Positions 1 through 12,204 of a DNA stretch of 27,903 nucleotides are shown piece by piece. Numbering within the stretch: the first letter of the stretch is position 1; each line of letters opens with the position of its first letter. Below the pieces are notes generated by a model. It was not told the origin of the DNA, made no database searches, and saw nothing but the letters and a program-made list of their open reading frames with translations. This DNA is from a virus. The stretch spans positions 1-27,903 of the IMG/VR virus record IMGVR_UViG_3300023110_001019; one strand, written 5' to 3'. The position numbers and the translations under genes were made by a program.

Positions 1-1590
1 TGAACCTATGTTTATATCAGGAAGACCTTTCTCCCTAAATTCTTTTTTTAACTTTTCAGTTTCTTCAGCACATTCTATACCTGTCTTTACAGCCATCTCA
101 GCGTGATTAGGACAATCTAATGGTGCGTTCCAAAATGCCATAATACAATCACCCATATACTTGTCAATCGTACCACCATTTCTTAAAACAATTTGACTCA
201 TACGATTTAAGTAATCATTGATTACAGCAACCAATCCTTCAGGATCATCTTTGTTTTTATAATATTCAGAAATGGGAGTAAAACCTACTATGTCCATAAA
301 CAAAAATGACATCTCTTTTCTATCGCCACCAAGTTTTAATTTTTCAGGATTCTTTACAAGTATAGCAACTTGTCTTGGATCCAAATACTTCTCAAACTGT
401 TTTCTGATTTGTTGTTTTAATTTAAACTCTAATATAAATCTATTAAAGACACTATGAAATCCTACAACTGTAATTGTAAATATAATCCAAGTTACATCTA
501 CTAACATTAAATTTTGTTGAAAGAAATAATTAGAATAAACTATTGAGCCTAATATTGAAAATACAATTGCTAAACCTATTACCCAATATGGTGTAAATCT
601 TGTTAGAAATATTATTACTAACCCTACTACAAAAGCAACAGCCAGTTCTACAATAAATGATATATCAACTCTTGTAATATTCTTACCATCTAACACGGTT
701 GAAAGTGTTGAAGCAGTTAGTTCATAAGCATATCTTTCACCAACTGGTGTGGCAATAACACCACCTAATCCTTCAGCATTCATTCCTATAATTACTGTTT
801 TGTTGTTTAATCTAACTTCACTTGTTTCTAAATCAGCAATTGATGTAGTGATGTAACCTTTGTTCCATCTTAACCAGATACGAGCATTTGCATCTGTTTC
901 TATAGTTTTAAATCCAGGAACTCTCATTGCAATTATACCACCTTCTCCTGTTTTAACTTGATAACTTGGTGCACCTGTTGATACTCTTATAACTTCAATT
1001 GCCATTGCAGGATAAATTTCTTCACCTATTCTCATTAGTAATGGTATTCTTCTTACAACGCCATCCACTTCAGGTGCTGTGTTTGTTACACCTACACCAT
1101 CAGCGTATTCGCCAAACTCTTTGACAGGACCTAACATTCCACCCCATTCAAATAACCAAGGTAACGGGTCACCTATTTTAGCGACACCTCTTGGTACAGC
1201 ATTTTTATTTGTTTGATTTGTTCCTGTTTGTGCTATGACTACACCATTTTGATAAATTGTATTGATAAATGTTTCATCACCACCTAGTCTATCGTATTCT
1301 GAAAATAGTATAGGTATAACTATAATGCCAGCACCCCTTTCTCTTAATTGATTTACTACATCTGCTAGTACATCTCTTTTCCAAGGCCATTGTCCATACT
1401 TCTCTATGGCCTTCTCGTCTATGCTGACAATGTGTATATCTTGTGAAATTTCTTTTGGCTCTGATTGTAATAATAAGTCAAATGACTTTAATCTTAATAT
1501 CTCTTTTATCTGTGGGTCTTTTAATCCAATATATGTAACAATGAATAATGTTAAGAAAGCAAATGTCCAATGTGTTAATATTTTTTTCAT
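1..1590 (-). CDS. CHASE2-domain transmembrane class III adenylate/guanylate cyclase (C-terminus cut by window edge)
   Basis: Predicted inner-membrane receptor cyclase making cAMP or cGMP. The frame is open from ATG at 1588-1590 to base 1, so 530 residues are visible and the end is missing. Order seen: one membrane segment at about 9-25; a large extracytoplasmic CHASE2-like sensor at about 30-305, with the typical 'VSIDEKAI', 'YGQWPWKR' and 'VVRRIPL' stretches; three membrane segments at about 313-395; then a class III cyclase domain. The first metal Asp lies in FLFMDIVGFT (about 431) and the second in KYMGDCIMAFW (about 479). The Lys of DKYMGD fits adenylate rather than guanylate specificity, but the later specificity and transition-state residues are beyond the edge. 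It overlaps the stop of the upstream curlin-like gene by one base (TAATG), so it is the last visible gene of the curli operon. CHASE2 cyclases are often neighbours of FecR proteins in bacteria, as here. The family call is secure; activity and signal are unknown. Confidence 0.9.
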   Translation of the reverse strand, partial: MKKILTHWTFAFLTLFIVTYIGLKDPQIKEILRLKSFDLLLQSEPKEISQDIHIVSIDEKAIEKYGQWPWKRDVLADVVNQLRERGAGIIVIPILFSEYDRLGGDETFINTIYQNGVVIAQTGTNQTNKNAVPRGVAKIGDPLPWLFEWGGMLGPVKEFGEYADGVGVTNTAPEVDGVVRRIPLLMRIGEEIYPAMAIEVIRVSTGAPSYQVKTGEGGIIAMRVPGFKTIETDANARIWLRWNKGYITTSIADLETSEVRLNNKTVIIGMNAEGLGGVIATPVGERYAYELTASTLSTVLDGKNITRVDISFIVELAVAFVVGLVIIFLTRFTPYWVIGLAIVFSILGSIVYSNYFFQQNLMLVDVTWIIFTITVVGFHSVFNRFILEFKLKQQIRKQFEKYLDPRQVAILVKNPEKLKLGGDRKEMSFLFMDIVGFTPISEYYKNKDDPEGLVAVINDYLNRMSQIVLRNGGTIDKYMGDCIMAFWNAPLDCPNHAEMAVKTGIECAEETEKLKKEFREKGLPDINIGS

Positions 1591-2402
1591 TAATTACCTT
1601 GTGTCACCGAAACTGAACAGCCTCCTAATGTTTGACAATCTTGTGTAAGTGAATATGATTGTGCTGTACCACCTTGTTGTAGTAAATCTAAATCTGTACC
1701 GTAACTACCTGTTATTGAAACTGTGGCACTATGAGATGAACTACCCTTTTGAATCATATCAACATCATTATCAGAATTATTTATAGTCAAATTCAATGTC
1801 TTGTCCTGATTGCCCCATTGTACAGTAAAAACATCATTATAATTTCCATAAATGTAAGTTGTATTGCTATGTTCGTGTCCTGAATTATTTGACCTTTGAC
1901 TTCCTAAAAATGTATTATTTGAACCGTGAATATCTAATCTTACAAAATGACCACCATATTCGTAATCATCTATCGTATCTAATGAACCATCAGAATAAAC
2001 TCTATAACCTTGATAAAAATCCACATCATTACTATTACCTGAAATATGAAATTCAAATCTATCTCCACCACAAGGTGTTTGATTACAGTATTGTTTGATG
2101 TTTAAATTATTATCGTTACCATCTAAATCCCCACCCCAACTATATCCACTTCCCCATAATGAAGTATATCCAATATAACCATCATCACCTTTTTGTTCAA
2201 ACGTCATAGTATTATCCGTACCACCTATTGACATATCTACTTTATTGTCTTCGCCTTCTTGGTTTACATTAATGGTTGTATCATCATTACCTGTGCCAGC
2301 TTGACTAATATAAATTTCATTGGCCTTTACTTTATCTATGATAGAATAAAAAACCATCCATACAAATAACCAGATTGTTAATCTTTTTAAAAATTTATAC
2401 AT
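1590..2402 (-). CDS. Exported curlin-like repeat protein A (270 aa)
   Basis: Likely a secreted amyloid-type subunit, comparable in role to CsgA or CsgB. A basic, hydrophobic N-terminus (about 1-27) looks like a signal peptide, giving a mature start near NEIYISQ. The mature protein is rich in Asn, Asp, Gly, Ser and Thr. It carries degenerate curlin-like units of the form (I/V)-x-(Q)-x-G-x-x-N: YISQAGTGN (31-39), INVNQEGEDN (44-53), MTFEQKGDD (66-74), VDMIQKGS (214-221), LDLLQQGG (238-245) and a terminal SVTQGN. Unlike classical CsgA it contains cysteine pairs (C106/C111 and C256/C262), possibly disulfides. Its mature N-terminus matches the second curlin-like protein encoded at 3559-4272, so the two are paralogues. 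It is translationally coupled on both sides by one-base overlaps with the FecR gene and the cyclase gene. The repeats are irregular, so the curlin call rests on pattern, paralogy and the CsgG/CsgF context. Confidence 0.75.
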   Translation of the reverse strand: MYKFLKRLTIWLFVWMVFYSIIDKVKANEIYISQAGTGNDDTTINVNQEGEDNKVDMSIGGTDNTMTFEQKGDDGYIGYTSLWGSGYSWGGDLDGNDNNLNIKQYCNQTPCGGDRFEFHISGNSNDVDFYQGYRVYSDGSLDTIDDYEYGGHFVRLDIHGSNNTFLGSQRSNNSGHEHSNTTYIYGNYNDVFTVQWGNQDKTLNLTINNSDNDVDMIQKGSSSHSATVSITGSYGTDLDLLQQGGTAQSYSLTQDCQTLGGCSVSVTQGN

Positions 2403-3508
2403 TATCGTTGTAATAGGTCTATATTATTCAGACCTCCTCCATCTCCTACAATATAATCTCTTGTTATAAAATCACCTTGTGACAGATTAATAACATACTC
2501 ACTTGATTTACTTAATTTTAATCGTACAAAGTTAGTTGTATCCTCTCGTCTAAATTCCCAATATGTTCCTTGGTCAATAATAATAATACCTGTTAACTCG
2601 TCTTGTCCTACTTTTTGTTTCTTCTTTACAAATACATCTGTTAACTCACTTAAAAAACTTTCTGCTAATACTTTGTTAATTTGGTCTAATACATCTGCTA
2701 AAAAATCTTGTGCTAGATAGTCAATATCCAATTCTTCAAAGTTATCATCATCTTTTGTTGCTAGTAAATCTTCGTTTAAAACATCTATTTCTAAAAAATC
2801 AATATCTAAAACATTAGCAACAGCTTTCTTTTCTTCTACTGCCTCATCTGTATTTAAGTTTGATGGTGGTGATAAGATAAGTAGATTTGAAATCATACTT
2901 TCATCAACATCTACTAAAATAGGTTTAAATGGTTTTGCTTCTGGTGCTTCAACTCTTGTTGCTTGAAAGGCCTGATTCATTATAACTTGACCAGCATCTG
3001 ATTCTACACTTATCTCTCCTACATAACATAAACCATTTGTATCACAACTTGGTAATAATAAAATAGTAGAACCACCTAATTCATCTATAATCATAGCAAA
3101 GTCAGTACCTCTAACAGCAATTGTGGCTGTTGGTGTACTAATCTTTACATTTTGTTTTGAATTTTTGGCAATCTGACCTGAAGCATATCTTACACTTCCT
3201 AAACTTGCCTTTAATGATAACGCACCTGTGTTGGTGTTAGGGTCATAAACAAACTCGTCAATGACTAACTTTGAGTGTTCCGTTAACTCAACTTTAGTGT
3301 CATCAACAAAGGTGATACCTGTACGGCCATCACCTGTCTTTACTGTATCGTATGAAAAGACTTCAACATCTTTTTGAATAGTGATACCTTTGTCACCGTC
3401 TTTTCTATCTATTTCTGCCTTGCCTTTGTGTTCACTTACTTTACCAATAGAGGCAAGAGCAGAATTAGAAATTACGATTAATAAAATTATAAAGTTCAAT
3501 ATTCGCAT
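2402..3508 (-). CDS. Exported FecR-domain protein (368 aa)
   Basis: A hydrophobic N-terminus with an ALA-S cleavage site (about residue 19) predicts export. Residues about 45-150 form a FecR domain: 'VFSYDTVKTGDGRTGITF', a 'LTEHSKLVIDEF' strand, 'GSVRYASG' and the hallmark 'TPTATIAVRGTDF' (125-137). The rest is acidic, with a region rich in Leu, Asp and Glu at about 225-285 and no recognised domain. Classical FecR is a membrane anti-sigma regulator. This protein lacks the cytoplasmic helical part and the membrane anchor, so it belongs to the exported FecR-like group often found next to CHASE2 cyclases. Its stop overlaps the start of curlin-like gene A by one base. The 50-base gap upstream of it (3509-3558) is the only real gap in the operon, and I see no convincing promoter or hairpin there. 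It might be a periplasmic ligand or signal partner of the cyclase; that role is inference. Confidence 0.85.
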   Translation of the reverse strand: MRILNFIILLIVISNSALASIGKVSEHKGKAEIDRKDGDKGITIQKDVEVFSYDTVKTGDGRTGITFVDDTKVELTEHSKLVIDEFVYDPNTNTGALSLKASLGSVRYASGQIAKNSKQNVKISTPTATIAVRGTDFAMIIDELGGSTILLLPSCDTNGLCYVGEISVESDAGQVIMNQAFQATRVEAPEAKPFKPILVDVDESMISNLLILSPPSNLNTDEAVEEKKAVANVLDIDFLEIDVLNEDLLATKDDDNFEELDIDYLAQDFLADVLDQINKVLAESFLSELTDVFVKKKQKVGQDELTGIIIIDQGTYWEFRREDTTNFVRLKLSKSSEYVINLSQGDFITRDYIVGDGGGLNNIDLLQR

Positions 3509-3558
3509 ATACTAAAAGTCCTATAATTAATATTAAGTTTATTGTTCCAAAGTCCATA

Positions 3559-4272
3559 TTAATCCGATTGTGTTATGTCTATATCAAAACTATCGCCAGT
3601 TACATCTAAATCTACTGTATTGTCATAGATACCAGATTGTGTAACATCAATAGTTCCTCCACCGCCAGTAACATTGATTGTAATGCCGTGACCAGCACTA
3701 TCGCCATCTCCGTCAACATCTAAAGTAATAGCATTACCTTCATCTGAATTTGCTGAAGTTGTTGCTAATGATGATGAGTTATCTGAAGTTACAGATATAT
3801 TAGCACTTACACCGTCAACAGCAGCAGCGATAACGCTGTTATCTCCTGTAAGTGTAAAACTAATTGTAGATGATGAAGCGTCTGTAGTTTCACCAATATC
3901 AAAATCAAAGGTGTTGTTGTCACCTGTTGTAGTGATATTAAGTGTTACAGTATCACAATCTCCTGATGATGTAGAGCTACAAAGTAAATCAACTGTGTTT
4001 GAGTTACCTGTAAAAGCCCAAGTACCTGTATAAGTTGATCCTTTAATTGTAGCGTCAATAGTGTTTGTGTTACCTGTTTGTGTAATACTAAACGTCATAT
4101 TATCACCGTTTAAAACCATATCGGCAAGTGAATCACCGACTTCGTTATTTTGTCCGTCTTGTGTAATGTCCAAATCAAGGCCGTCTCCGACCTGTTCTAT
4201 ATAAATGTCGTTAGCATAAACGTTAAAGCATAATATACTAGCAAATAATGTAATTAACAGTTTATTTAACAT
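3559..4272 (-). CDS. Exported curlin-like repeat protein B (237 aa)
   Basis: Second predicted amyloid-type subunit. The signal peptide is about 1-20, cut at VYA-ND, giving a mature start NDIYIEQVGDG that mirrors NEIYISQAGTG of the other curlin-like protein. Curlin-like units are DITQDGQNNEV (35-45), SITQTGNTNTI (62-72), DVTQSGIYDNTV (209-220) and a terminal DITQSD. Between them are beta-prone stretches of Asp, Thr, Ser, Gly and Asn with a GDN/GNSN turn about every 20-25 residues (N57, N67, N90, N119, N144). One close cysteine pair (C98, C106) could form a disulfide. Length is somewhat above E. coli CsgA (about 150 aa). Its start lies inside the end of csgG (11-base overlap), so it is translated with the pore gene that would export it. 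An alternative reading is a generic beta-helical adhesin; the CsgG/CsgF neighbours make curlin-like the better call. Confidence 0.78.
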   Translation of the reverse strand: MLNKLLITLFASILCFNVYANDIYIEQVGDGLDLDITQDGQNNEVGDSLADMVLNGDNMTFSITQTGNTNTIDATIKGSTYTGTWAFTGNSNTVDLLCSSTSSGDCDTVTLNITTTGDNNTFDFDIGETTDASSSTISFTLTGDNSVIAAAVDGVSANISVTSDNSSSLATTSANSDEGNAITLDVDGDGDSAGHGITINVTGGGGTIDVTQSGIYDNTVDLDVTGDSFDIDITQSD

Positions 4273-5056
4273 TTACTTTTTTCTCCTCTTTAAATTTCCA
4301 AAGACCATTTTGTTGGCCTTGTAATATAATTTCTACTACGGCCTGTTCTATCGCTGCTCTTACAGCATAGTTAACAGGTTCGTTTTTTGTTACTCCTGTT
4401 TCTGTTTCTATTGCTCTTGTACCTAAATCTAAAAACTTAAATACAGATGAGCCATATGAAACAGATAATATAGTTTTTTCAACAGCAACTGTAAGTAAGA
4501 CTTCTCCTGTAGAAACACTTACTATTCTCATAGAAACAGTTACGTTATCAACTCTATATTGTTGTTGTACTCCTATGCCCAAATATCTAGCACCAGCACC
4601 ACCAGTTGCTATATTTGAGTCATAACCTACAACACCACCTTCAAGTATAAGACCAGCAAACTTTAAAGGTTTTAATCTTTTAGATTTTTCTTCTTCATAC
4701 TGTTCTCTTGTTGATCTTATCAGCTGCCTTTCTTTGATTAGATTATCTAATCCAATTCTTTCTACAACTTGAAACCAAGTCCCATTACCTACTTTTTGTA
4801 ATGCGTCTATCACCCATACTTCAGCACCTTGTGTGACAGCACTACTTAATTGTGAAAACTTATCACTTGGTTTTCTTTGACCTGTCTTATCTGTAAACTG
4901 ATATACAGCAATTGTAATTTCAGGTCCGTCTAATTTTTTTATATTATCAAATTTTTCTTGTAACGGAGATAGAGATAGTTTTGGATCCTCTATCTGAGGT
5001 ACAGTAGCGCAACCACTTAAACATATAGCTGCCAAAAATAATAATACTTTAAACAT
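4262..5056 (-). CDS. csgG: CsgG-family outer-membrane curli secretion lipoprotein (264 aa)
   Basis: CsgG forms the nonameric outer-membrane pore that exports curli subunits. The N-terminus is a lipoprotein signal with lipobox LSGC, and the acylated residue would be C16. The family pattern is clear and continuous: 'ITIAVYQFTDKTGQRKPSD' with the conserved Phe-Thr-Asp-x-Thr-Gly, 'SSAVTQGAEVWVIDALQ', 'GTWFQVVERIGLDNLIKERQ', 'REQY', 'AGLILEGGVVGYDSNIATGGAGARYLG', 'RVDNVTVSMRIVSVSTGEVL', and 'LDLGTRAIETETGVTKNEPVN' followed by a C-terminal helix. Length is close to E. coli CsgG (277 aa precursor). It overlaps the CsgF gene by one base upstream and the curlin-like gene by 11 bases downstream. No frameshift or missing motif is visible, which suggests a functional gene. 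It is clearly not a standard T4-like gene and was presumably acquired from a bacterium. Confidence 0.95.
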   Translation of the reverse strand: MFKVLLFLAAICLSGCATVPQIEDPKLSLSPLQEKFDNIKKLDGPEITIAVYQFTDKTGQRKPSDKFSQLSSAVTQGAEVWVIDALQKVGNGTWFQVVERIGLDNLIKERQLIRSTREQYEEEKSKRLKPLKFAGLILEGGVVGYDSNIATGGAGARYLGIGVQQQYRVDNVTVSMRIVSVSTGEVLLTVAVEKTILSVSYGSSVFKFLDLGTRAIETETGVTKNEPVNYAVRAAIEQAVVEIILQGQQNGLWKFKEEKKVNVK

Positions 5057-5514
5057 TAAAATCCAAAGTCCCCTATGGGCACAGTTAATGTTGTTACCGT
5101 TCCATCTTCTGCTGTAATTGTAATATTAATTGTTCCCAAATCTGTATCTTTAGTCCATACAATTTGAGCACCTTCTATTTCAGCAGTACCAGAATTTTGT
5201 CCAGTATCACTAAACATATTATCAACTAATTGTTTTGATAGATTAGCGTAAATTCTACTTTCAACGTTAGCAATAAAACGATTGATTGTCTTATTGTCTT
5301 CGTCACGTTTAGCCTGCCTTTCAGCGGCTTCTTTGTCTTCTTTTATCTTTTGTTTTCTTTGGTGTTCAAGTTGTTGTATAGATAACACGTGGTTTGAGTA
5401 ACCATTTCCACTAAAGGAAGGGTTCTTAAAATCCTGTGTCAATTCACTTGATTGTAATGATGATGAGAATAGTATAATTCCAAAGAAAGCACTTAATTTA
5501 ATTAGTGTTTTCAT
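5056..5514 (-). CDS. csgF: CsgF-like curli assembly factor (152 aa)
   Basis: CsgF binds inside and around the CsgG pore and anchors fibre nucleation at the cell surface. The signal peptide is about 1-22. The mature N-terminus contains the signature DFKNPSFSGN, matching the F-x-NP-x-F-x-GN that inserts into the CsgG channel. A charged, coiled-coil-like middle follows (about 50-80), then an 'INRFIANVESRIYANLSKQLVDNMF' helix and a C-terminal beta domain ending 'GTVTTLTVPIGDFGF'. This layout matches CsgF; the charged middle is longer than I would expect from E. coli CsgF. It is the first gene of the curli operon. A late promoter (5520-5527) lies exactly five bases upstream of its ATG. No Shine-Dalgarno fits in that space, so the transcript is predicted to be leaderless. 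Confidence 0.88.
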   Translation of the reverse strand: MKTLIKLSAFFGIILFSSSLQSSELTQDFKNPSFSGNGYSNHVLSIQQLEHQRKQKIKEDKEAAERQAKRDEDNKTINRFIANVESRIYANLSKQLVDNMFSDTGQNSGTAEIEGAQIVWTKDTDLGTINITITAEDGTVTTLTVPIGDFGF

Positions 5515-5519
5515 ACTAC

Positions 5520-5527
5520 TATTTATG
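5520..5527 (-). promoter_or_regulatory. T4-type late promoter ahead of the curli operon (CATAAATA)
   Basis: Read on the minus strand, CATAAATA matches the late consensus NATAAATA of T4-like marine phages. It occupies most of the 14-base gap between the small membrane gene and csgF, and is followed by GTAGT and then the ATG of csgF. Transcription from a T4 late promoter starts about six bases downstream of the box, which would be at the ATG itself. Confidence 0.7.
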
Positions 5528-5528
5528 T

Positions 5529-5783
5529 TTATTCGTCTTTAGTTTTCTTCTTTTCTTCTTCTCGGAGTGTCAGGACTGTGTTTAATTTTGCCTTGATTCT
5601 TATAAGGTCATTATCAAGTCTTCGTATCTTATCTAACAACATAATTAGAGCCTTATTTGCTTCTCCCAATTTACTGGTAACTTCTTGTGTTATAAAGTTA
5701 TAGATAAACCAAATAAACCAACCCATAGCAATAGCGGCCAGTGTCGCAAAACCGTATTGATTAAGTATTTCTAAAATTGTCAT
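5529..5783 (-). CDS. Small membrane protein, holin-like (84 aa), copy 1
   Basis: One membrane segment at about 13-32 (FATLAAIAMGWFIWFIYNFI) is followed by a charged amphipathic helix and a Lys/Glu tail. This layout (N-terminal membrane helix, cytoplasmic coiled coil, charged end) resembles BhlA/UviB-type phage holins. It is clearly related to the next upstream gene: both start M-x-x-x-EILxQ(Y/F)G, then an Ala-rich AA-IxMG-FI motif, then NDLI-I. It ends 14 bases before csgF and its start overlaps the stop of its sister gene by one base. An alternative role is as a membrane partner of the curli cassette or of the nuclease next door. Holin function is an inference from shape and position. Confidence 0.6.
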   Translation of the reverse strand: MTILEILNQYGFATLAAIAMGWFIWFIYNFITQEVTSKLGEANKALIMLLDKIRRLDNDLIRIKAKLNTVLTLREEEKKKTKDE

Positions 5784-6058
5784 TAGTCTTTTCTTGCGTC
5801 ATTCTTTCCATCTGATCTAGCAATTCTATCTAAATCAGGTTTGAGATGTAACGCTGATGATATTAAAGTGTCAATATGTATCAGGTCATTATTCATAGTA
5901 TCTATTCTATTTTCTAAACCCATAATAATACCGTGCAATCCTTTTACTGAACCTACAACGCCACCTAAAATATACTTTAGAATAATATAAATGAAACCAC
6001 CCATTGTGATAGCAGCTGCGACAGGTAATCCGAATTGTGTTAGTATCTCAAAAAACAT
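5783..6058 (-). CDS. Small membrane protein, holin-like (91 aa), copy 2
   Basis: Paralogue of the 84-residue neighbour. A hydrophobic segment at about 10-33 (GLPVAAAITMGGFIYIILKY) is followed by a helical region with 'NRIDTMNNDLIHIDTLI' and a charged tail. It has one-base overlaps with both neighbours, so the two copies and the nuclease gene are translationally coupled. The tandem pair probably arose by duplication. Two related holin-like proteins could act as holin and antiholin or form a hetero-oligomer, but nothing in the sequence decides this. Confidence 0.6.
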   Translation of the reverse strand: MFFEILTQFGLPVAAAITMGGFIYIILKYILGGVVGSVKGLHGIIMGLENRIDTMNNDLIHIDTLISSALHLKPDLDRIARSDGKNDARKD

Positions 6059-6477
6059 TATACTCTTTTTCTATTTCTTAAATGAGCTGCTTCAACAAGT
6101 TTTTTGTTTTGACCATAATAAGCAACAGCGTGACCTACTTTAACCATTTCTGAATTAACAGATTTGCCGTCACACCATACATCTCCAAGTATTCTACCAA
6201 ACTTACCTGTTTCTGAATTTTTGTATGTTTTAATTGTAATCTTTTTTGCTTTTTTTAATTTTTCTTGTAAAAACTTTTTAGATTTTAAACCATAAACTTT
6301 TTCTACTTTATCTCTTGTTCTACTTTCTGGTGTGTCTATACCAAATAGTCTAACTCTTTGAGCAAACAAAATGTCAAACCCCATATCTAATATAACATCT
6401 ATTGTGTCTCCATCTACAACTTTTGTAACTCGTTTTACTCTATAACTAAAGTCAGTTTTATCACCTAGTTTCGCCAT
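6058..6477 (-). CDS. Staphylococcal-nuclease-like (SNase/thermonuclease) protein (139 aa)
   Basis: Calcium-dependent nuclease of the OB-fold SNase family. It contains VVDGDTID (20-27), RLFGIDTPES (43-52) with the expected Arg43, Asp48 and Glu51, and GKFGRILGDV with Arg95. These correspond to Asp21, Arg35, Asp40, Glu43 and Arg87 of staphylococcal nuclease, so the active site looks complete. The C-terminal 'VNSEMVKVGHAVAYY' is also conserved. No signal peptide is visible, so it should act in the cytoplasm, possibly on host DNA or RNA. The start lies inside the upstream lipoprotein gene (17-base overlap). Confidence 0.92.
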   Translation of the reverse strand: MAKLGDKTDFSYRVKRVTKVVDGDTIDVILDMGFDILFAQRVRLFGIDTPESRTRDKVEKVYGLKSKKFLQEKLKKAKKITIKTYKNSETGKFGRILGDVWCDGKSVNSEMVKVGHAVAYYGQNKKLVEAAHLRNRKRV

Positions 6478-6841
6478 TTTCTACCTCGTAATATTCTTTA
6501 TACTTGTCTAGCAAGTCATTTGTTATTTTTAATTGATTTCTTATTCTTGCAAAGTTTTTTGCTAGTAATTCAAAGTCTTTATCTGTTAGTCCCCATAAAA
6601 CTGGATCAATGCCTTGTTCTTCTAGTTTCTTAAATACTTCTTCAGCATTATTAGATGTAATAATAATCCATCTTAAATTTTCTAATTCAAGTGGTGTTGG
6701 TTTTTCTAAATTTAGTTTTGCTCTAGGTACTTCTTCTTTAAATATGCTTAACTGTTTTACTCCACTACAACTAGTAAGGAATATAGTTAGGATTAGCAAT
6801 AGAAGGACATTCTGAATTAATTTCTGACTTCTTTGTAGCAT
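6461..6841 (-). CDS. Outer-membrane lipoprotein, Rz1-like o-spanin candidate (126 aa)
   Basis: Hydrophobic signal (about 10-21) with lipobox FLTSC, so C25 would be the acylated residue. The body contains 'LRWIIITSNNAEEVFKKLEEQG', 'LWGLTDKDFELLAKNFARIRNQL' and 'LLDKYKEYYE', a W-x3-T-x2-N / GL-T / N-x-x-x-I pattern that recurs in small phage lysis-region proteins. Its first 24 codons overlap the end of the upstream coiled-coil membrane gene in another frame (71 bases), the usual arrangement of Rz/Rz1 spanin pairs. Rz1 proteins are often shorter and Pro-rich; this one is longer and not Pro-rich, so function rests on lipobox and overlap. Confidence 0.72.
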   Translation of the reverse strand: MLQRSQKLIQNVLLLLILTIFLTSCSGVKQLSIFKEEVPRAKLNLEKPTPLELENLRWIIITSNNAEEVFKKLEEQGIDPVLWGLTDKDFELLAKNFARIRNQLKITNDLLDKYKEYYEVENGETR

Positions 6842-7235
6842 TCTTTTCTGCCTCAGTTAGAGGTGATCCACTTGCGATCTCAATACATCTTGTAGCAAGT
6901 GCTGACGCACCGTTTGTTATTCTTTCAATAGACTCTGTTTTCTGTATGGCTAACTTGCCAACATCTCTATTTTTTTTATTAAACCTTTTATCAAGGTCTT
7001 CTAAATCTTTTTTCAATACATTTACTAACTCGTTCATTTTTTTGTTAGCATCTAGTATTTGTTGAAAATCTTTTTTCTGATTTTCTATTAAAGTCTTTTG
7101 TTCGGATACAGCAGACTCTAGTTTAACTGCATTTGCTTTAAGTATAGTGTTGTCTTTCTGTAACTTAAAAATGTATCCACCAGCGCCGATTAAAGCGCTG
7201 ATGAATATTCCAATAAAAAATAATCTAATTCCCAT
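6771..7235 (-). CDS. Inner-membrane coiled-coil protein, Rz-like i-spanin candidate (154 aa)
   Basis: N-terminal membrane anchor at about 4-20 (RLFFIGIFISALIGAGG), then a long predicted coiled coil (about 24-105) with many Leu, Lys, Glu and Gln, and a C-terminal region with two cysteines (about 117 and 143). This is the layout of i-spanins, which span the periplasm and pair with an outer-membrane lipoprotein to fuse the membranes at lysis. The partner lipoprotein gene starts inside it. The ATG has only a weak ribosome site. A very small membrane gene lies just upstream. Confidence 0.72.
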   Translation of the reverse strand: MGIRLFFIGIFISALIGAGGYIFKLQKDNTILKANAVKLESAVSEQKTLIENQKKDFQQILDANKKMNELVNVLKKDLEDLDKRFNKKNRDVGKLAIQKTESIERITNGASALATRCIEIASGSPLTEAEKNATKKSEINSECPSIANPNYIPY

Positions 7236-7241
7236 GGTTGA

Positions 7242-7400
7242 TTAGTCTTTTTTCCAAATTGCCCATAGACCCCAAGCGATTGACGCCCATGCAGCCATTT
7301 TAGCAAAAGGTCCTGCGAATAATATAATGCAGCCCATTGCTACTAAAGCACCACCATGCCATGATGATACTTCTTTTACTCTACTTTTTAACCATTTCAT
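7242..7400 (-). CDS. Small hydrophobic protein (52 aa), possible holin
   Basis: Short open frame from ATG at 7398-7400 to TAA at 7242-7244, with a good ribosome site (AAGGAG) about seven bases upstream. Residues 17-48 are almost wholly hydrophobic (starting GALVAMGCIILFAGPFAKM and ending GLWAIW), flanked by basic ends (N-terminal MKWLKSRVKE, C-terminal WKKD). This suggests one or two membrane helices. Position directly ahead of the spanin pair and the size fit a phage holin, but I recognise no named family. Confidence 0.65.
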   Translation of the reverse strand: MKWLKSRVKEVSSWHGGALVAMGCIILFAGPFAKMAAWASIAWGLWAIWKKD

Positions 7401-7419
7401 ATAGTTTACTCCTTATATG

Positions 7420-7998
7420 TTATTTGATTGTTTCGTTTCTTTTTCTATGACCATTCCAAGCAACAAAGCCGCCTATTCTTAATGACCAATATGCTAGATA
7501 GTTCATAAAATAGAAACCGTTTACTTCTATGTTTATATCTCTAAAGATTTGATCTGCTTTTTTCTGATCAACTAATAGAAGTGAACCTGATTTATCTGCT
7601 GGTTTACAAGCAGTGTACTTGTACATATAATCGTGTACAAGGCCACCAATTAATAATACGCCAACTGGTGAAAAAAATGTTCTTAAAAATTTAGGTATAC
7701 TTGCACCGTCAAATTGAAAACCTTTTGGTATTACATACTCAGCACCGTTTATGTTATATCTCCAGTTCTTTGTTAGTTCCCAATTTCTTGTTGATAATAA
7801 CCACATTGCAATACCTTTCCAAAATCCTTTACCTTTTGTTTTAATTGGTATAGGTTTTAGTTGAGGCATTTCTTCATATTTAAATGTAATGTTACTTTTT
7901 CTTTTATCTAATAAGTTTATAAGAAAACCTATTATTACAAATAATATAAGTAATGACCATTGCCAAAATTTCATTGCTAATGCTATTAATAGTTCCAT
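7420..7998 (-). CDS. DUF1353 family protein with N-terminal membrane helix (192 aa)
   Basis: A membrane segment at about 10-29 (KFWQWSLLILFVIIGFLINL) precedes a DUF1353-like domain. The hallmarks are 'YVIPKGFQFDGASIPKF', 'FFSPVG' and 'LIGGLVHDYMYKY', with the conserved Asp and His-Asp. DUF1353 proteins are common in phages and prophages, often near lysis genes; their biochemical role is unknown. The His-Asp pair and the conserved PxGFxxDGAS loop suggest an enzyme-like site, but this is speculative. It closes the lysis-like block, one base from the next upstream gene. Confidence 0.82.
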   Translation of the reverse strand: MELLIALAMKFWQWSLLILFVIIGFLINLLDKRKSNITFKYEEMPQLKPIPIKTKGKGFWKGIAMWLLSTRNWELTKNWRYNINGAEYVIPKGFQFDGASIPKFLRTFFSPVGVLLIGGLVHDYMYKYTACKPADKSGSLLLVDQKKADQIFRDINIEVNGFYFMNYLAYWSLRIGGFVAWNGHRKRNETIK

Positions 7999-7999
7999 A

Positions 8000-8224
8000 T
8001 TAATCCTTTTTTTTTATTTTTTTTTTATTTGCACTTATCATAGGTTTATATGTTCCCATACCTCGACCATTATAAGTTGCTGATAAAGATGGCATTGTAG
8101 TTGCATATCTCCTATTTGGAAAAAATTGACTACCGCCCATAGATGACATAGGTTTAAAAGTATCTATAGGACCAATACCAAAACCTCTCATGTATTCTCT
8201 TAACTGTTTAAAAGATTTACTCAT
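8000..8224 (-). CDS. Small basic phage protein with capsid-targeting-like N-terminus (74 aa)
   Basis: No known family recognised. The protein is rich in Gly, Met, Ser and Tyr, with a strongly basic Lys-rich C-terminus (ANKKKIKKKD). The N-terminus MSKSFKQLREYM resembles the short M-(K)-x-F-K-x-x-x-E tag shared by several neighbouring genes. Its start overlaps the upstream stop by eight bases. A small, basic, tagged protein in this block could be an internal head protein that binds DNA; this is inference. Confidence 0.6.
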   Translation of the reverse strand: MSKSFKQLREYMRGFGIGPIDTFKPMSSMGGSQFFPNRRYATTMPSLSATYNGRGMGTYKPMISANKKKIKKKD

Positions 8225-8675
8225 ATTTTGTTAATAGTAATAAGGCAGCTTCGTTTCTAAATTCTTCGGATACTGTAGTTGTGATTTGATTATCTACAAC
8301 ATATCTAAATGCTTTGATACCAAAGTCTTCAGTATATGTGCCTTTTTCTTTTTTTGATTTTATATTATTTAAAATAGGTTTAATTTGAGTTTCTTCTATT
8401 TCTTGGTTTGAACAGATTTTATTAACAACGTTTTCTAATTCTACTCTATCATAGTCTTCACGTTTTAATAATTTTGTTAAATCTTTTTTCTTCTTTTTTA
8501 TATGTACGCCAGGTTCATGTGCAGGTGGCATAGCAACATTTGATCCATCACCTACTGCATTTGCGGGTGCTTCTTCAGGCACACAGTTAGGTACCATTCT
8601 GTCGCCTTTTTTCTTTTGACCAACTTGTTTATAACCTTTCCAACAAGCCTCTCTCATATCTTTAAAACTTTTCAT
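8217..8675 (-). CDS. Conserved marine T4-like phage protein (152 aa), capsid-targeting-like N-terminus
   Basis: Begins MKSFKDMREACWKGYKQVG, followed by KKKGDRMVPNCVPEE. The C-W-x-GY-K-x-x-G plus VPNCVPE motif recurs in short modules of cyanophage and pelagiphage proteins as I remember them. A basic linker (about 59-70) leads to a helical C-terminal half (about 70-152). No enzymatic motif is visible. The first nine residues fit the tag discussed for this block. It overlaps its downstream gene by eight bases and its upstream gene by one base. Function unknown. Confidence 0.7.
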   Translation of the reverse strand: MKSFKDMREACWKGYKQVGQKKKGDRMVPNCVPEEAPANAVGDGSNVAMPPAHEPGVHIKKKKKDLTKLLKREDYDRVELENVVNKICSNQEIEETQIKPILNNIKSKKEKGTYTEDFGIKAFRYVVDNQITTTVSEEFRNEAALLLLTKYE

Positions 8676-9265
8676 TAAAATTTTATCCTTTCTATGTTAT
8701 CTTCAGATACAATAATTTTTTGTTTTGTATCTTCATTAATAACATGATATAGACTTACACCAAAATAATTATCAAAAGGCTTTTGATTTTCAGTTGTATA
8801 AACAACATCACCTACATCAGCAGTTTTAGATCCTTCTAAATCTTCTAACTTATCAATCATAATATATCTACCTTCTGGCAAGTAATCAAATCCAACTGAC
8901 TCTTTTAAGTCATCATCATAAGCTACTAAATCATTTTCAACAAGATGTTTGTATAATGCTCTTTCTATTTCAATTGCATTTACATCTTTTTGTTCTTTTA
9001 ATAATAATCCTAACGCAGCTGCATATGTACCTAATTTTGATTTACCACCTGGAACAAATGCTAATAATCTTTTTAAATTAAAAACAAATCTGTGTAACAA
9101 AGTATAAGAGTCTTTTTCTTTTGACGTTCTTAACTCTCTTGCTTTTCTTAAAACTTTTCCATTATCATCAATAATTCCATACTTATAAGCTTCATGTTTA
9201 TTCCAAGGTGTAACCAATAACTTTATAACTCTATAAGTGATTAATAAGTCTATTGCTCTTCCCAT
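8675..9265 (-). CDS. Conserved marine T4-like phage protein, possible virion protein (196 aa)
   Basis: Starts MGRAIDLLITYRVIKLLVTPW and contains 'AYKYGIIDDNGKVLRKAREL', a long helical region with 'FNLKRLLAFVPGGKSKLGTYAAALGLLLKEQ', and a beta-rich C-terminus. This protein type is familiar from cyanomyoviruses and pelagiphages, where it is usually annotated as hypothetical or structural. I see no catalytic motif, signal peptide or membrane segment. It is coupled to both neighbours by one-base overlaps. Confidence 0.72.
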   Translation of the reverse strand: MGRAIDLLITYRVIKLLVTPWNKHEAYKYGIIDDNGKVLRKARELRTSKEKDSYTLLHRFVFNLKRLLAFVPGGKSKLGTYAAALGLLLKEQKDVNAIEIERALYKHLVENDLVAYDDDLKESVGFDYLPEGRYIMIDKLEDLEGSKTADVGDVVYTTENQKPFDNYFGVSLYHVINEDTKQKIIVSEDNIERIKF

Positions 9266-9627
9266 TATAATTCCTCTAAATTTGATAACAACGTTTTGTT
9301 TATTTTCACATTTGGCATTTCATCTGGCAACATTATATTTAAATACTGTAAGAAAGTTTTTAATATACCCCAATACTCTCTTTCAATTTTAAACAATAAC
9401 AGTGTAGCAGCTGCCTCGTTACCAAAAACATTTGTTAATACAATAATATGATTTAAAACTAATCTAGTTTTCAATTCACCAGTTGTTTTATATTTACGAA
9501 ATAAGCGTTTTAAGTACTTAAAACGTTTTACATCCTCATAAAACTCTTGTTCACTATCTAAATTAGGAACATTGTAGTTTTTGATGGCATAAAACAACCA
9601 ATTTTTTTTTGTTATCTTATCAAACAT
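9265..9627 (-). CDS. Conserved hypothetical T4-like phage protein (120 aa)
   Basis: Mostly helical small protein with 'WLFYAIKNYNVPNLDSEQEFYEDVKRFKYLKRLFRKY', 'TGELKTRLVLNHIIVLTNVFG' and 'LKTFLQYLNIMLPDE'. The same pattern (short helical protein with LVLNHII-L-NVFG) is common in marine T4-like phages next to the 196-residue protein type encoded downstream here. Function is unknown. One-base overlaps on both sides. Confidence 0.75.
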   Translation of the reverse strand: MFDKITKKNWLFYAIKNYNVPNLDSEQEFYEDVKRFKYLKRLFRKYKTTGELKTRLVLNHIIVLTNVFGNEAAATLLLFKIEREYWGILKTFLQYLNIMLPDEMPNVKINKTLLSNLEEL

Positions 9628-10064
9628 TAGCCAAGCTCTGCATAAACTTTAACAGCGCCGTTTTGTAATGTTTCGTATTTACCTTTTAGTTTTAACTCTT
9701 TACCTAACTTATGACTAATACCATCATCATTTATATCAGAACCGTCTGTATCTTTACCAAAACGACCACCATTAAATACTAAAGCACTTTCAAAGTTACC
9801 TTGTTTTCCTTCAATTGTTATTGAGTCTTTTAATTGCAATCCAATTGTTCTTAATTTTGTTTCCAATTGAGAAAGAGCACTTTCGGGTTGCAAGTATTCT
9901 CCGTCAGCAATAGAGCTAACAAATCTATTTGCTCTATCTAAGACTTCAGGTAGATGTATGTTGTGTATACCAATCGAACTATCCTCTGGAGAGTTAGAAG
10001 TAGTAGAACCAACTTGTCCACCCATGTAAGAGCCTTCTTTTACGTGTTGTTTAAATGTTTTCAT
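9627..10064 (-). CDS. Putative head-associated protein with capsid-targeting-like N-terminus (145 aa)
   Basis: N-terminus MKTFKQHVKEGSYMGG closely resembles the T4 internal-protein signal MKTYQEFIAE, with a Glu-Gly junction at 9-10 suitable for a gp21-like protease. The rest contains 'ADGEYLQPESALSQLETKLRTIGLQL' and a beta-rich end with 'GRFGKDTDGSDINDDGISH', whose Asp-rich turn might bind a cation. No enzyme family recognised. It overlaps the downstream gene by one base and the upstream gene by four. Confidence 0.68.
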   Translation of the reverse strand: MKTFKQHVKEGSYMGGQVGSTTSNSPEDSSIGIHNIHLPEVLDRANRFVSSIADGEYLQPESALSQLETKLRTIGLQLKDSITIEGKQGNFESALVFNGGRFGKDTDGSDINDDGISHKLGKELKLKGKYETLQNGAVKVYAELG

Positions 10065-10231
10065 TTTTCTCCTCTTTTTAATTCGTCTTTTAGTTTTTTA
10101 AAAGACTTACCACCTATAAGGTCTTCTTCAACCTCTTTCATATTATCTTCTTCTAATTTGTTGAACTGTTTATCATTTGGTGTATTATCAGCCAGTTCTT
10201 CAAAAAATTTATCTAAATTATTTTTGCTCAT
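10061..10231 (-). CDS. Small charged protein (56 aa)
   Basis: I choose the ATG at 10229-10231 (MSKNNLDKFFEELADN). The longer open frame would extend to 10327, deep into the upstream gene, with no ribosome site. With this start the overlap with the upstream gene is 14 bases, as for other neighbours. The product is highly charged, helical and ends KSFKKLKDELKRGEK. No family recognised. Confidence 0.6.
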   Translation of the reverse strand: MSKNNLDKFFEELADNTPNDKQFNKLEEDNMKEVEEDLIGGKSFKKLKDELKRGEK

Positions 10232-10448
10232 CTTCTTTTTCAACCAATAATTGTTGTTCATCTTTTGTCTTTGACGTTGATAACTTAATAAGTTTATCAG
10301 TTTGTTGAATAGCCCCATAAACAGCATTCAAATTATTTTTCATAGTAATCATTTCTTTTTCAATTGTAGAAATTTTACCAGTTAAATCATCAAAATCTTT
10401 TTTAAGTTTAATTCTTTCTTCCGTCAATGTTTTCAAATCAATACTCAT
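10218..10448 (-). CDS. Small coiled-coil protein (76 aa)
   Basis: Nearly the whole length is a predicted coiled coil with heptad Leu, Ile and Met: 'LTEERIKLKKDFDDLTGKI', 'IEKEMITMKNNLNAVYGAI', followed by a Lys/Glu tail. Such small coiled-coil proteins are common between structural genes of T4-like marine phages. AGGAG lies about 14 bases upstream of the ATG. Function unknown. Confidence 0.68.
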   Translation of the reverse strand: MSIDLKTLTEERIKLKKDFDDLTGKISTIEKEMITMKNNLNAVYGAIQQTDKLIKLSTSKTKDEQQLLVEKEDEQK

Positions 10449-10464
10449 ATTATATTATCTCCTA

Positions 10465-10929
10465 TTATGCGTTTACTGTAGCGCCATTACCTTCAGCAAT
10501 AACTTGCCATTTTGAATTTTTAAAAAGTAATGTAACTGTTTCACCTTCTTTATCTAAAGTTATTGATGAATAACCTCGTCTATTAGTTGGTGTAATAGTT
10601 TGTGCATTTGTACCTGATGATGAAACATTAATAATTGTTTTAATTTGTCCATCTGAACCATCGTTTAAACCAAATGTACCAGTTGATGATGCACCATCAA
10701 TTTCTGTAATCTGTGAAGTTACATTAATTGACTGTGATGAACCATCAGCAGTAAGTGACTCAGAAGCTTGTGCTAATCCTAGCCAACTTGGAATGTTATT
10801 GAAAACATTTTCTGCTGATATTTTTTTATTGATTGGTGTACCTGACGGATCGTCAACTACATGGAACAAGTCAGCTGATGCCAACGAGTCACCTAAATCG
10901 GTCAATGCCGTTATTTTTTTGTCTGCCAT
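10465..10929 (-). CDS. Putative virion structural/appendage protein (154 aa)
   Basis: Starts MADKKITALTDLGDSLASADLFHVVDDPSGTP, a collar typical of marine phage tail-fibre-type and decoration proteins (ADxKITxLxxL...DxxxVVDxP). Then come 'KISAENVFNNIP' and a beta-rich domain with 'IDGASSTGTFGLNDGSDGQ', 'TLLFKNSKWQVIAEGNGATV'. The last motif resembles the end of many phage fibre or needle domains. It is probably exposed on the virion. It is preceded by AGGAG and a 111-base region with three potential hairpins. Confidence 0.72.
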   Translation of the reverse strand: MADKKITALTDLGDSLASADLFHVVDDPSGTPINKKISAENVFNNIPSWLGLAQASESLTADGSSQSINVTSQITEIDGASSTGTFGLNDGSDGQIKTIINVSSSGTNAQTITPTNRRGYSSITLDKEGETVTLLFKNSKWQVIAEGNGATVNA

Positions 10930-10945
10930 TTTTTTCTCCTGTTAA

Positions 10946-10955
10946 CCCTTTCGGG
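10946..10955 (-). other. Small GNRA-type hairpin in the 5' leader
   Basis: On the minus strand this reads CCC-GAAA-GGG, a three-pair stem with a GAAA tetraloop. It lies about 17 bases before the ATG at 10929 and just upstream of the AGGAG ribosome site. It could modulate translation. The stem is very short, so chance is possible. Confidence 0.35.
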
Positions 10956-10963
10956 AATGCTAC

Positions 10964-10981
10964 TCTAGGTATTTGCCTAGA
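10964..10981 (-). other. Hairpin in the leader (TCTAGG-N6-CCTAGA)
   Basis: Perfect six-base inverted repeat with a six-base loop in the gap between two putative virion genes. No U-run follows on either strand, so it is not a classical terminator. Confidence 0.45.
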
Positions 10982-11001
10982 TCAATTTGTTCATATAGTA
11001 T

Positions 11002-11030
11002 ATATAAGGGCACTTTGAGCGCCCTTATAT
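11002..11030 (-). terminator. Strong hairpin after the 185-residue virion gene, possible terminator
   Basis: ATATAAGGGC and GCCCTTATAT form a perfect ten-base stem around a nine-base loop, starting 11 bases after the stop codon at 11041. The bases after it on the minus strand (TACTATATGAAC) are not U-rich. It may therefore be an imperfect terminator, an RNA-processing signal or an mRNA-stabilising 3' structure. Confidence 0.5.
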
Positions 11031-11040
11031 GATTTTGTTA

Positions 11041-11598
11041 TTATGCTGAAACAGTTAATGTACCTGTTTGAGCAGCGTTTGTAATTGTAGAGTTTGTTGT
11101 TGTACCAAAGTCTTTAATAGTACCACCGTTAAGTGCTACTGCGTTTGTACCAATTGATAATACATCATTTTCAGCAATACCACCATCTGCAGCACCATAA
11201 GTTGCTCTGAATACAATTTCGTTTGATCCTGTACCAGAGTTATAATCTGCTGTAAATGTAGCATCAGTACCACTACCTGTTTGGTCGTTAGTTACTGTTA
11301 CTTGTGGTGTTCCTGTAATGTCAACTCTTTCGTTAAATCTTACTCTAACGTCAATGTTTCCACCAGCAGCTGCACCGATTGATGTTGTTACAAATTCTAT
11401 TTCAGTAATATTTGCTGAACCCATATTTGTAGCTAATCCGCCGATTGCTACTAATACTTCAGGATCTGCATTTGGATTATCATTACCTGATAATACCGAG
11501 CCCGCTTCTCTTACCCAACCTTGAGCGGTTGCATAGACTTCTTTTTTTTCTTCGTCTGTAAGATTTTTAGGCTTTATATCATTTCCCCATAAAGACAT
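11041..11598 (-). CDS. Putative virion surface protein with Ig-like/beta-sandwich domain (185 aa)
   Basis: The N-terminal part (1-60) begins MSLWGNDIKPKNLTDEEKK and includes 'TAQGWVREAGS', a module seen at the start of structural proteins in T4-like cyanophages. The rest is a beta-rich domain: 'GGNIDVRVRFNERVDITGTPQVTV', 'NEIVFRATYGAADGGIAENDVLSIG', 'LNGGTIKDFG'. It resembles bacterial Ig-like or SwmB-type repeats of surface adhesins (V-V-F-x-E-x-V-x-V-T-G-x-P). Such domains decorate phage capsids or tails and may bind cell-surface glycans. It has its own late promoter (11639-11646) and a normal AAGGAG site, and ends before a strong hairpin. Confidence 0.75.
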   Translation of the reverse strand: MSLWGNDIKPKNLTDEEKKEVYATAQGWVREAGSVLSGNDNPNADPEVLVAIGGLATNMGSANITEIEFVTTSIGAAAGGNIDVRVRFNERVDITGTPQVTVTNDQTGSGTDATFTADYNSGTGSNEIVFRATYGAADGGIAENDVLSIGTNAVALNGGTIKDFGTTTNSTITNAAQTGTLTVSA

Positions 11599-11638
11599 AT
11601 ATCTCTCCTTAAATTTAATATTTGTTATATAACTCTAC

Positions 11639-11646
11639 TATTTATA
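11639..11646 (-). promoter_or_regulatory. T4-type late promoter (TATAAATA)
   Basis: Exact late consensus TATAAATA on the minus strand, 40 bases upstream of the ATG at 11598. The predicted leader of about 35 bases contains AAGGAG next to the start, so this transcript is conventional and not leaderless. Confidence 0.8.
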
Positions 11647-11649
11647 AGA

Positions 11650-12138
11650 TTAAAAACCTAGTTTTTTAAGTTCAGATATAGTTTTAGATGTGTTTGTGTG
11701 ATGTATGCCAGTACCACCAGCATTGATAAACTCTCTTATATTTTTCTCGTAATCGTCTATAAGAATAGCAGGTTGGCCTCTTTTTGCAAAGAGTTTCTTT
11801 TCTTTTCTTCGTACTAGGTTGATTTTTTGTTTATTTGTCATACCTGCGTTTCTTCTTAACCATTCAGTTTTACCAGGTATACAGTTTGGATCGTAAGTTT
11901 CTTCTACGTAAGCTGATAAGATATGTGGATCAAATTTTGATATATAAGACCAAAGTTGTTTACCACCAGGCATCCAAGGTAGAGTTTGCCAGAAATCTTT
12001 TTTTGCTTTAATAAGTGACCACTTGTCTTTACCCATTGACATCCATTTGTTAATGGACATCTTTGTAGTCTTTTGAGCACCTGTTTTAAAGTCTGCAAGT
12101 ACTCCGTCCATATCGCAATATATGATAGGTTTGTTCAT
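11650..12138 (-). CDS. HAD-superfamily 5'(3')-nucleotidase-like phosphatase (162 aa)
   Basis: Begins IIYCDMDGVLADF with the HAD motif I Asp9-x-Asp11-G-V-x-A-D-F, typical of NT5C-type deoxyribonucleotidases. The C-terminal 'AKRGQPAILIDDYEKNIREFINAGG' supplies the acidic motif IV (IDD) and the usual 'W/F-x-x-AGG' ending; Lys residues in the middle can supply motif III. It probably dephosphorylates nucleoside monophosphates, or trims nucleic-acid ends as in Pnk-like phosphatases. It has its own sigma70-like promoter directly upstream, so it is likely expressed before the surrounding late genes. Confidence 0.8.
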   Translation of the reverse strand: MNKPIIYCDMDGVLADFKTGAQKTTKMSINKWMSMGKDKWSLIKAKKDFWQTLPWMPGGKQLWSYISKFDPHILSAYVEETYDPNCIPGKTEWLRRNAGMTNKQKINLVRRKEKKLFAKRGQPAILIDDYEKNIREFINAGGTGIHHTNTSKTISELKKLGF

Positions 12139-12158
12139 AGTGTTTTCCTTATACTATT

Positions 12159-12187
12159 ATACTATCATATAATAGCTGTTTTGTCAA
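12159..12187 (-). promoter_or_regulatory. Sigma70-type promoter for the nucleotidase gene
   Basis: Minus strand TTGACA (12182-12187), 17-base spacer, TAGTAT (12159-12164); an overlapping TATAAT (12156-12161) gives a 20-base spacer. The -35 box forms half of the 12-base palindrome TGTCAATTGACA (12182-12193), which could be an operator. It lies in the gap between two genes, 21 bases before the ATG. Confidence 0.7.
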
Positions 12188-12204
12188 TTGACAGAATGTC
12201 GCAC

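Follow-up and report, generated by a model that had tools for sequence, protein, structure and literature searches.

Here we show that the minus strand of a 27,903-nt virus record (IMGVR_UViG_3300023110_001019; this whole stretch is called the window below) carries a phage-borne cassette whose protein families make up a full type VIII (curli-like) secretion set, composed of csgF, csgG, two curlin-like genes (CURa and CURb), a gene for an exported FecR-domain protein, a CHASE2-class III cyclase gene, and two small membrane-protein genes (S-A and S-B). The cassette as such is already known, having been published between 2020 and 2022. New here are (i) a re-reading of the FecR-domain protein and of the genes published as histidine kinase ('HK'), (ii) a survey of cyclic nucleotide monophosphate (cNMP)-binding domains and cyclases in host genomes, and (iii) a copy in Hyphomonas that lies inside the phage clade. 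Viruses that infect the ocean's most abundant bacteria seem to supply their streamlined hosts with a whole secretion system and amyloid-like fibres that these hosts lack, with possible effects on aggregation, superinfection, and carbon export.

Three papers, by Zaragoza-Solas et al. (PMC7029224), Wittmers et al. (PMC9599517), and Buchholz et al. (PMC9004378), bear on this system. CsgF and CsgG with unknown partners were reported in pelagimyophages in 2020 (PMC7029224), and in 2022 the full module, HK-CsgF-CsgG-CsgA/B-FecR-CsgA/B-AC (AC; adenylate cyclase), was described in podo- and myo-pelagiphages together with its world-wide distribution and expression (PMC9599517). Also in 2022, CsgGF of phage Melnitz was proposed to act as a lysis pore ('secretin/pinholin') (PMC9004378). 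A first-pass annotation of the window knew of no description of the entire cassette, cyclase and FecR included; PMC9599517 describes all of it, and the genes are annotated in this order in the GenBank record of Melnitz. The window shares genes, gene order, and phage group with the pelagiphage module (PMC9599517, PMC7029224), FecR and adenylate cyclase included. Gene content is identical to that in PMC9599517, whereas the reading differs, in that the genes which by position correspond to 'HK' encode no kinase domain and the 'FecR regulator' ends in a curlin-like tail. The curli operon of Melnitz and HTVC008M (GenBank MZ577097, KC465899) runs CsgF-CsgG-curlin-FecR-curlin-cyclase, with CsgG about 54% identical; the Melnitz paper treats CsgGF only and calls curlins lacking (PMC9004378), whereas its own GenBank record annotates them.

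Gene organization and the secretion pore

Six open reading frames (ORFs) run uninterrupted over positions 1-5514 of the minus strand (Table 1), separated by overlaps of 1-11 bp or gaps of 14-50 bp, and the cyclase ORF runs off the contig end, where its 3' part is cut. The first-pass annotation was right in describing six coupled genes at this place and wrong about where the cassette begins, as S-A and S-B (5529-6058) precede csgF and belong to it. The order SA-SB-CsgF-CsgG-CUR-FecR-CUR-AC is conserved in many IMG/VR loci, HTVC008M, and Melnitz. The window also encodes the T4-type proteins UvsX and a DnaB-type helicase, as found in T4-like phages, and the cultured relatives HTVC008M and Melnitz are Kyanoviridae.

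Table 1. Position, strand, and supporting evidence of the cassette genes.
Gene and predicted product	Position	Strand	Length and evidence
S-A, membrane protein with one span and a coiled-coil-like C-terminal segment	5783..6058	-	91 aa; phrog_18771; no kinase domain; cassette-linked
S-B, S-A paralogue	5529..5783	-	84 aa; phrog_18771; LDNDLIRL core conserved; cassette-linked
csgF, extracellular pore cap/chaperone	5056..5514	-	152 aa; signal peptide; FKNPSFSG; PF10614, 61.1 bits; 127 phage orthologues
csgG, outer-membrane secretion pore lipoprotein	4262..5056	-	264 aa; PF03783, 191.8 bits; PDB CsgG profile match; 53.5% identity to HTVC008M
CURa, curlin-like fibre subunit 1	3559..4272	-	237 aa, exported; predicted beta-solenoid-like; Curlin_rpt 25.0 bits; C-terminal DIDITQSD
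FecR-domain protein, exported; candidate fibre anchor/minor subunit	2402..3508	-	368 aa; curlin-like half-repeat at residues 344-367; Pfam, AlphaFold2 model, tail statistics
CURb, curlin-like fibre subunit 2	1590..2402	-	270 aa, exported; Curlin_rpt 16.6 bits (under cut-off); C-terminal motif; place between the FecR and cyclase genes conserved
CHASE2 sensor + class III nucleotidyl cyclase	1..1590	-	530 of about 641 aa; CHASE2 142 bits, Guanylate_cyc; full-length orthologue L003

Profile searches matched CsgF, CsgG, FecR, CHASE2, the class III cyclase, and CURa, with CURb under the Curlin_rpt cut-off; these family matches, together with the viral genes of the contig (UvsX, DnaB-type helicase, spanins), support the original call of a phage-borne curli-type secretion operon. 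CsgG covers the whole of PF03783 (E=1.2e-56), and its profile retrieved the CsgG structures 3x2r/6l7a from the PDB (E=4e-73). CsgF matches PF10614 (E=1.6e-16) and found no counterpart in the PDB. The CsgG lipobox (LSGC) and the CsgF pore-insertion motif, both of which had been noted as kept, are present, the latter, which is known from E. coli CsgF, as FKNPSFSG. The accompanying claim that all CsgG family motifs are retained is true of nearly all of them: the E. coli constriction residues N55/F56 are Q/L in phage CsgG, although alphaproteobacterial CsgGs likewise vary at these positions, and an altered constriction was accordingly discarded as a sign of repurposing. The window thus holds what characterizes type VIII (curli) secretion, namely a CsgG lipoprotein pore, a CsgF with the pore-insertion motif, and at least one exported curlin-repeat subunit (CURa). 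Pfam searches of the cassette ORFs gave no match to the accessory proteins CsgE and CsgC; since both are reported to be absent from Alphaproteobacteria (PMC9599517), they are not defining for this type of curli. Alphaproteobacterial curli operons (Erythrobacter, Sphingomonas, Azospirillum, Roseovarius) likewise consist of CsgF-CsgG followed by curlins, without CsgE; they differ from the phage cassette in having larger curlin arrays and, in the loci examined, no match to FecR, cyclase, or S-A/S-B within about 8 kb.

An overlapping i-spanin/o-spanin pair (PHROG Rz-like spanins; 6461-7235) immediately precedes a nuclease gene and the cassette, spanins and nuclease together occupying 6058-7235 and adjoining S-A. 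The same spanin-nuclease-cassette arrangement is seen in close relatives (L003, L004, L118-L121).

Selection and expression signals

The cassette genes are under purifying selection, as the first-pass annotation had supposed. Pairwise dN/dS between the window and near relatives was 0.01-0.27 for S-A, S-B, csgF, csgG, CURa, FecR, and cyclase; CURb against L002 gave 0.50, a value resting on very few changes (pS 0.006). No decayed cassette gene was found in close relatives, and no gene is broken in the window, where all ORFs are open and the cyclase is merely cut by the contig end. That the cassette is a chimeric assembly or a decaying relic is very improbable: a split of the cyclase gene by an insert in one clade (L014/L015) would fit decay, while the occurrence of the cassette in two cultured complete phage genomes (HTVC008M and Melnitz) and many contigs, dN/dS well below 1 in nearly all comparisons, and split halves that are still open in L014 all speak against it. 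Both were rejected on the strength of the cultured copies and the low dN/dS, and the circumstances named beforehand as refuting the operon (a chimera, decayed copies) were not encountered.

Export had also been placed late in infection, which the promoter scan did not support: no T4-type late promoter (TATAAATA) was found upstream of the cassette within the operon, nor is this sequence over-represented, and it was dropped as evidence of timing. Scans for sigma-70 promoters and terminators were near chance.

Curlin-like proteins

CURa exceeds the Pfam Curlin_rpt cut-off (25.0 vs 20.7 bits). CURb holds the conserved second-curlin position in the FecR-cyclase interval and has a curlin-type C-terminus. 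The AlphaFold2 model of CURa (mean pLDDT 83.5) is all-beta, with one globular, beta-solenoid-like fold that resembles no solved structure closely; Foldseek returned beta-solenoid matches only, none significant. Such a fold, and repeats that are degenerate in the middle of the protein, would suit a non-amyloid surface coat, in which the three exported beta proteins would be non-polymerising, CsgG-exported adhesins or receptor-masking proteins. We regard this as unlikely, as curlin repeats with Q/N ladders persist at both ends of CURa.

The FecR-domain protein as a candidate fibre component

Contrary to its published reading as a regulator, the FecR-domain protein has FecR as its sole Pfam domain (E=6.3e-10). 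After a signal peptide, its AlphaFold2 model shows the FecR domain (residues 20-200), a linker modelled with low confidence, and, set apart from the FecR domain, a beta domain at the C-terminus (301-367). All 44 members of the family match FecR, and no regulator domain rises above chance level. The layout of anti-sigma/iron-signalling proteins (cytoplasmic anti-sigma N-terminus, membrane span, FecR) was not found; a cleavable-type signal peptide directly precedes the FecR domain.

The tail of the protein resembles the curlins. Conserved among the 44 relatives are Q344 (43), N361 (39), I363 (42), I/L/V365 (44), and Q367 (44), giving a motif G-x2-N-x-I-x-I-x-Q that is common to both curlins and matches the second half of the curlin repeat, G-x2-N-x-[AI]-x3-Q in consensus; 23 residues separate the two glutamines. 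Among divergent tails, a terminal motif, hydrophobic-x-hydrophobic-x-Q-x0-4-end, occurs in 43/47 of FecR, 32/37 of CURb, and 14/32 of CURa, where shuffling leads one to expect 4.8, 3.8, and 2.0, respectively, compared with 6/134 tails of CsgG, CsgF, and cyclase combined. The corresponding Fisher p-values (2e-30, 2e-23, and 1e-7) are inflated by the relatedness of the sequences. When a profile of the FecR tail alone was run against 18,200 ORFs, the top three non-FecR matches were curlin ORFs (E 0.013, 0.17, and 0.92), the first two aligning at the curlins' own C-termini. In Foldseek the FecR domain itself matched both the FecR/PupR signalling fold and the cell-surface anchoring domain 5ix9 (27% identity, TMt 0.75). 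Distant alphaproteobacterial FecR-domain relatives are mostly large and surface-protein-like, and may be adhesins. We infer that the protein is a fibre anchor or minor subunit and a poor candidate for an iron regulator, a role set aside for want of any regulator part.

Cyclase and cyclic nucleotides in the host

The cyclase matches CHASE2 at E=2.7e-41 and the class III cyclase family at E=5.8e-06, the latter with its 3' part missing at the window end. Residues D433, K477, D481, and R562 are invariant in 51-52 sequences and N558 is kept in 46/51; the two metal-binding Asp, the purine Lys, and the transition-state Asn/Arg of class III cyclases are thereby present, and the active site is predicted to be intact. 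In L014/L015 (15408-18371), a locus recovered from two metagenomes, an insert of ~0.9 kb with two ORFs splits the gene between its sensor and cyclase halves. Both halves are open, one insert ORF is GIY-YIG endonuclease-like, and an Rfam intron search of the insert gave no match.

Host capacity was surveyed in 101 genomes, the genus of a metagenome-assembled genome (MAG) titled 'Candidatus Pelagibacter', many of them incomplete MAGs. Class III cyclases were found in 0/101 and a cNMP-binding domain in 10/101 (an 870-aa protein), leaving 91/101 without; CsgG occurred in one, on a short phage-looking contig. No cNMP-binding domain was found in seven further records (two complete phages, four phage contigs, one MAG). 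Because the phage records checked and most host-labelled genomes have no such domain, control through cyclic AMP (cAMP) and CRP is unlikely in most hosts, and this circuit was rejected. The same counts weigh on the options raised in PMC9599517, by which CsgG would be an uptake pore for nutrients or siderophores, with the FecR protein regulating by iron and the cyclase by cAMP. The names of the two proteins favour this, as does the FecR/PupR-like fold; with a signal peptide and a lone FecR domain on one side, and receptors and cyclases so scarce on the other, it appears improbable. If FecR belongs to the fibre and the 'histidine kinase' is a linked pair of small membrane proteins, iron/cAMP regulation is no longer the default story.

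Small membrane proteins preceding csgF

S-A and S-B are paralogues; each has a single hydrophobic span at its N-terminus and, in alignments, a coiled-coil-like segment that is conserved, and both match phrog_18771 ('unknown function'). By position and length they appear to be the 'HK' genes published ahead of csgF (PMC9599517). At 91 and 84 aa, and with no match to kinase domains (HisKA, HATPase) at E up to 10, a histidine kinase was rejected. With one N-terminal span and a charged tail, they matched none of the Pfam holin families; they may be a holin-like or a secretion-assisting pair. Among 50,697 phage records S-A/S-B occur only in HTVC008M and Melnitz, the sole two phage types with the cassette, and none of the bacterial curli loci examined has them. 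Of 116 S loci in IMG/VR, 94 have CsgF/CsgG as well and three others have the cyclase, while most of the remainder are truncated; these counts are biased by the ranking of the loci by similarity to the window. A search for CsgG in ten S-A/S-B records with none in reach was empty; these contigs are short or end-truncated and so give no proof of S genes without a cassette.

These genes bear on the proposal (PMC9004378) that CsgG:CsgF has become a gated pore in the outer membrane that sets the time of lysis, the other genes being accessories or relics. In the window's clade the spanin pair, the holin-like S-A/S-B, and the cassette form one co-directional run, and Melnitz infections proceed without clumping (PMC9004378), as this proposal would have it. 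In HTVC008M and Melnitz, however, the cassette adjoins a ssDNA-binding protein gene and no recognised lysis module, S-A/S-B occur with the cassette and not with lysis genes, and curlins, FecR, and cyclase are selectively kept, curlins and FecR with a common export-type C-terminus, which is unexpected if the pore alone mattered. We consider the proposal distinctly unlikely and favour fibre export over a pore alone.

Proposed function

In the fibre-export explanation, three Sec-exported beta proteins (CURa, CURb, and the FecR protein), which share a curlin-type C-terminal strand, would pass CsgG:CsgF and form amyloid-like fibres on the surface of the infected cell. The FecR domain would serve as periplasmic or outer-membrane anchor or nucleator, its curlin-like tail joining the fibre, while CHASE2 would sense the state of the envelope or of export and the cyclase would signal by cyclic nucleotide. 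What the phage gains would most plausibly be a changed host surface (superinfection block or new-host retention). FecR-CHASE2 operons (PMC5192318, PMC13001267) likewise pair an exported FecR-domain protein with a CHASE2 membrane sensor; neither the FecR-CHASE2 sensory operon BiofilmReg of Burkholderia, whose output is a histidine kinase (PMC5192318), nor the CHASE2 cyclases of Sinorhizobium, which feed a CRP-type regulator mostly lacking in SAR11-type hosts (PMC13001267), comes with a curli pore.

Several observations weigh against fibre export. Amyloid formation by the exported subunits is something we infer from sequence, and no clumping was seen in Melnitz infections (PMC9004378). CURb scores under the Curlin_rpt cut-off (16.6 vs 20.7 bits), and Curlin_rpt does not detect the FecR tail. 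Foldseek matches the FecR domain more strongly with the anti-sigma FecR fold than with 5ix9, the Hyphomonas FecR has no curlin tail, and CsgE and the E. coli client tag (N22) are unrecognisable in the cassette. Taken as a whole, from export through fibres, FecR anchor, and CHASE2 sensing to the host-surface benefit, we consider fibre export probable. More tentatively, it is possible that phage curli has parts not found in ordinary curli operons, namely a third fibre protein (FecR), fixed in the outer membrane by its FecR domain and seeding or capping the fibre with its curlin-like tail, a dedicated inner-membrane pair (S-A/S-B), and an export-monitoring CHASE2-cyclase, with at least one transfer to Hyphomonas sp. 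TMED17.

Origin and other loci

A 705-kb contig of Hyphomonas sp. TMED17 (L048) with ordinary metabolic flanks carries CsgF-CsgG-curlin-FecR-CHASE2/cyclase at 7459-13482, the only cassette among 105 family genomes searched. This copy nests inside the phage clade (bootstrap/SH-aLRT 100/98); an approximately unbiased (AU) test of the nesting gave p 0.04 for a group named after the tree was seen (post hoc). Because of this placement the locus looks like a recipient and not a donor, and a bacterial donor of the full cassette was rejected, the only real bacterial copy lying among phages. Phage-to-bacterium transfer is the best reading of the locus, which MAG chimerism may also explain.

Eight further cassette contigs with S-A/S-B (L038, L039, L041, L044, L046, L051, L070, L088), filed under Rhodobacteraceae, Flavobacteriaceae, Sphingobacteriales, Saprospirales, and Synechococcus MAGs, are apparently mis-binned phage contigs. 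An unverified 1.5-kb 'Salmonella phage' record (L037; OR851715.1) holds an enterobacterial-type csgG and is probably host DNA contamination. Giant Brevundimonas phages (Kabachok and relatives) encode a very divergent CsgG-like protein (L036, 7860-8750), the rest of the cassette being absent. On L014, a phage contig, a permuted-type tmRNA (19225-19649) lies beside the cassette, and on another such contig, L229, over 20 tRNA genes are densely clustered (1299-7915).

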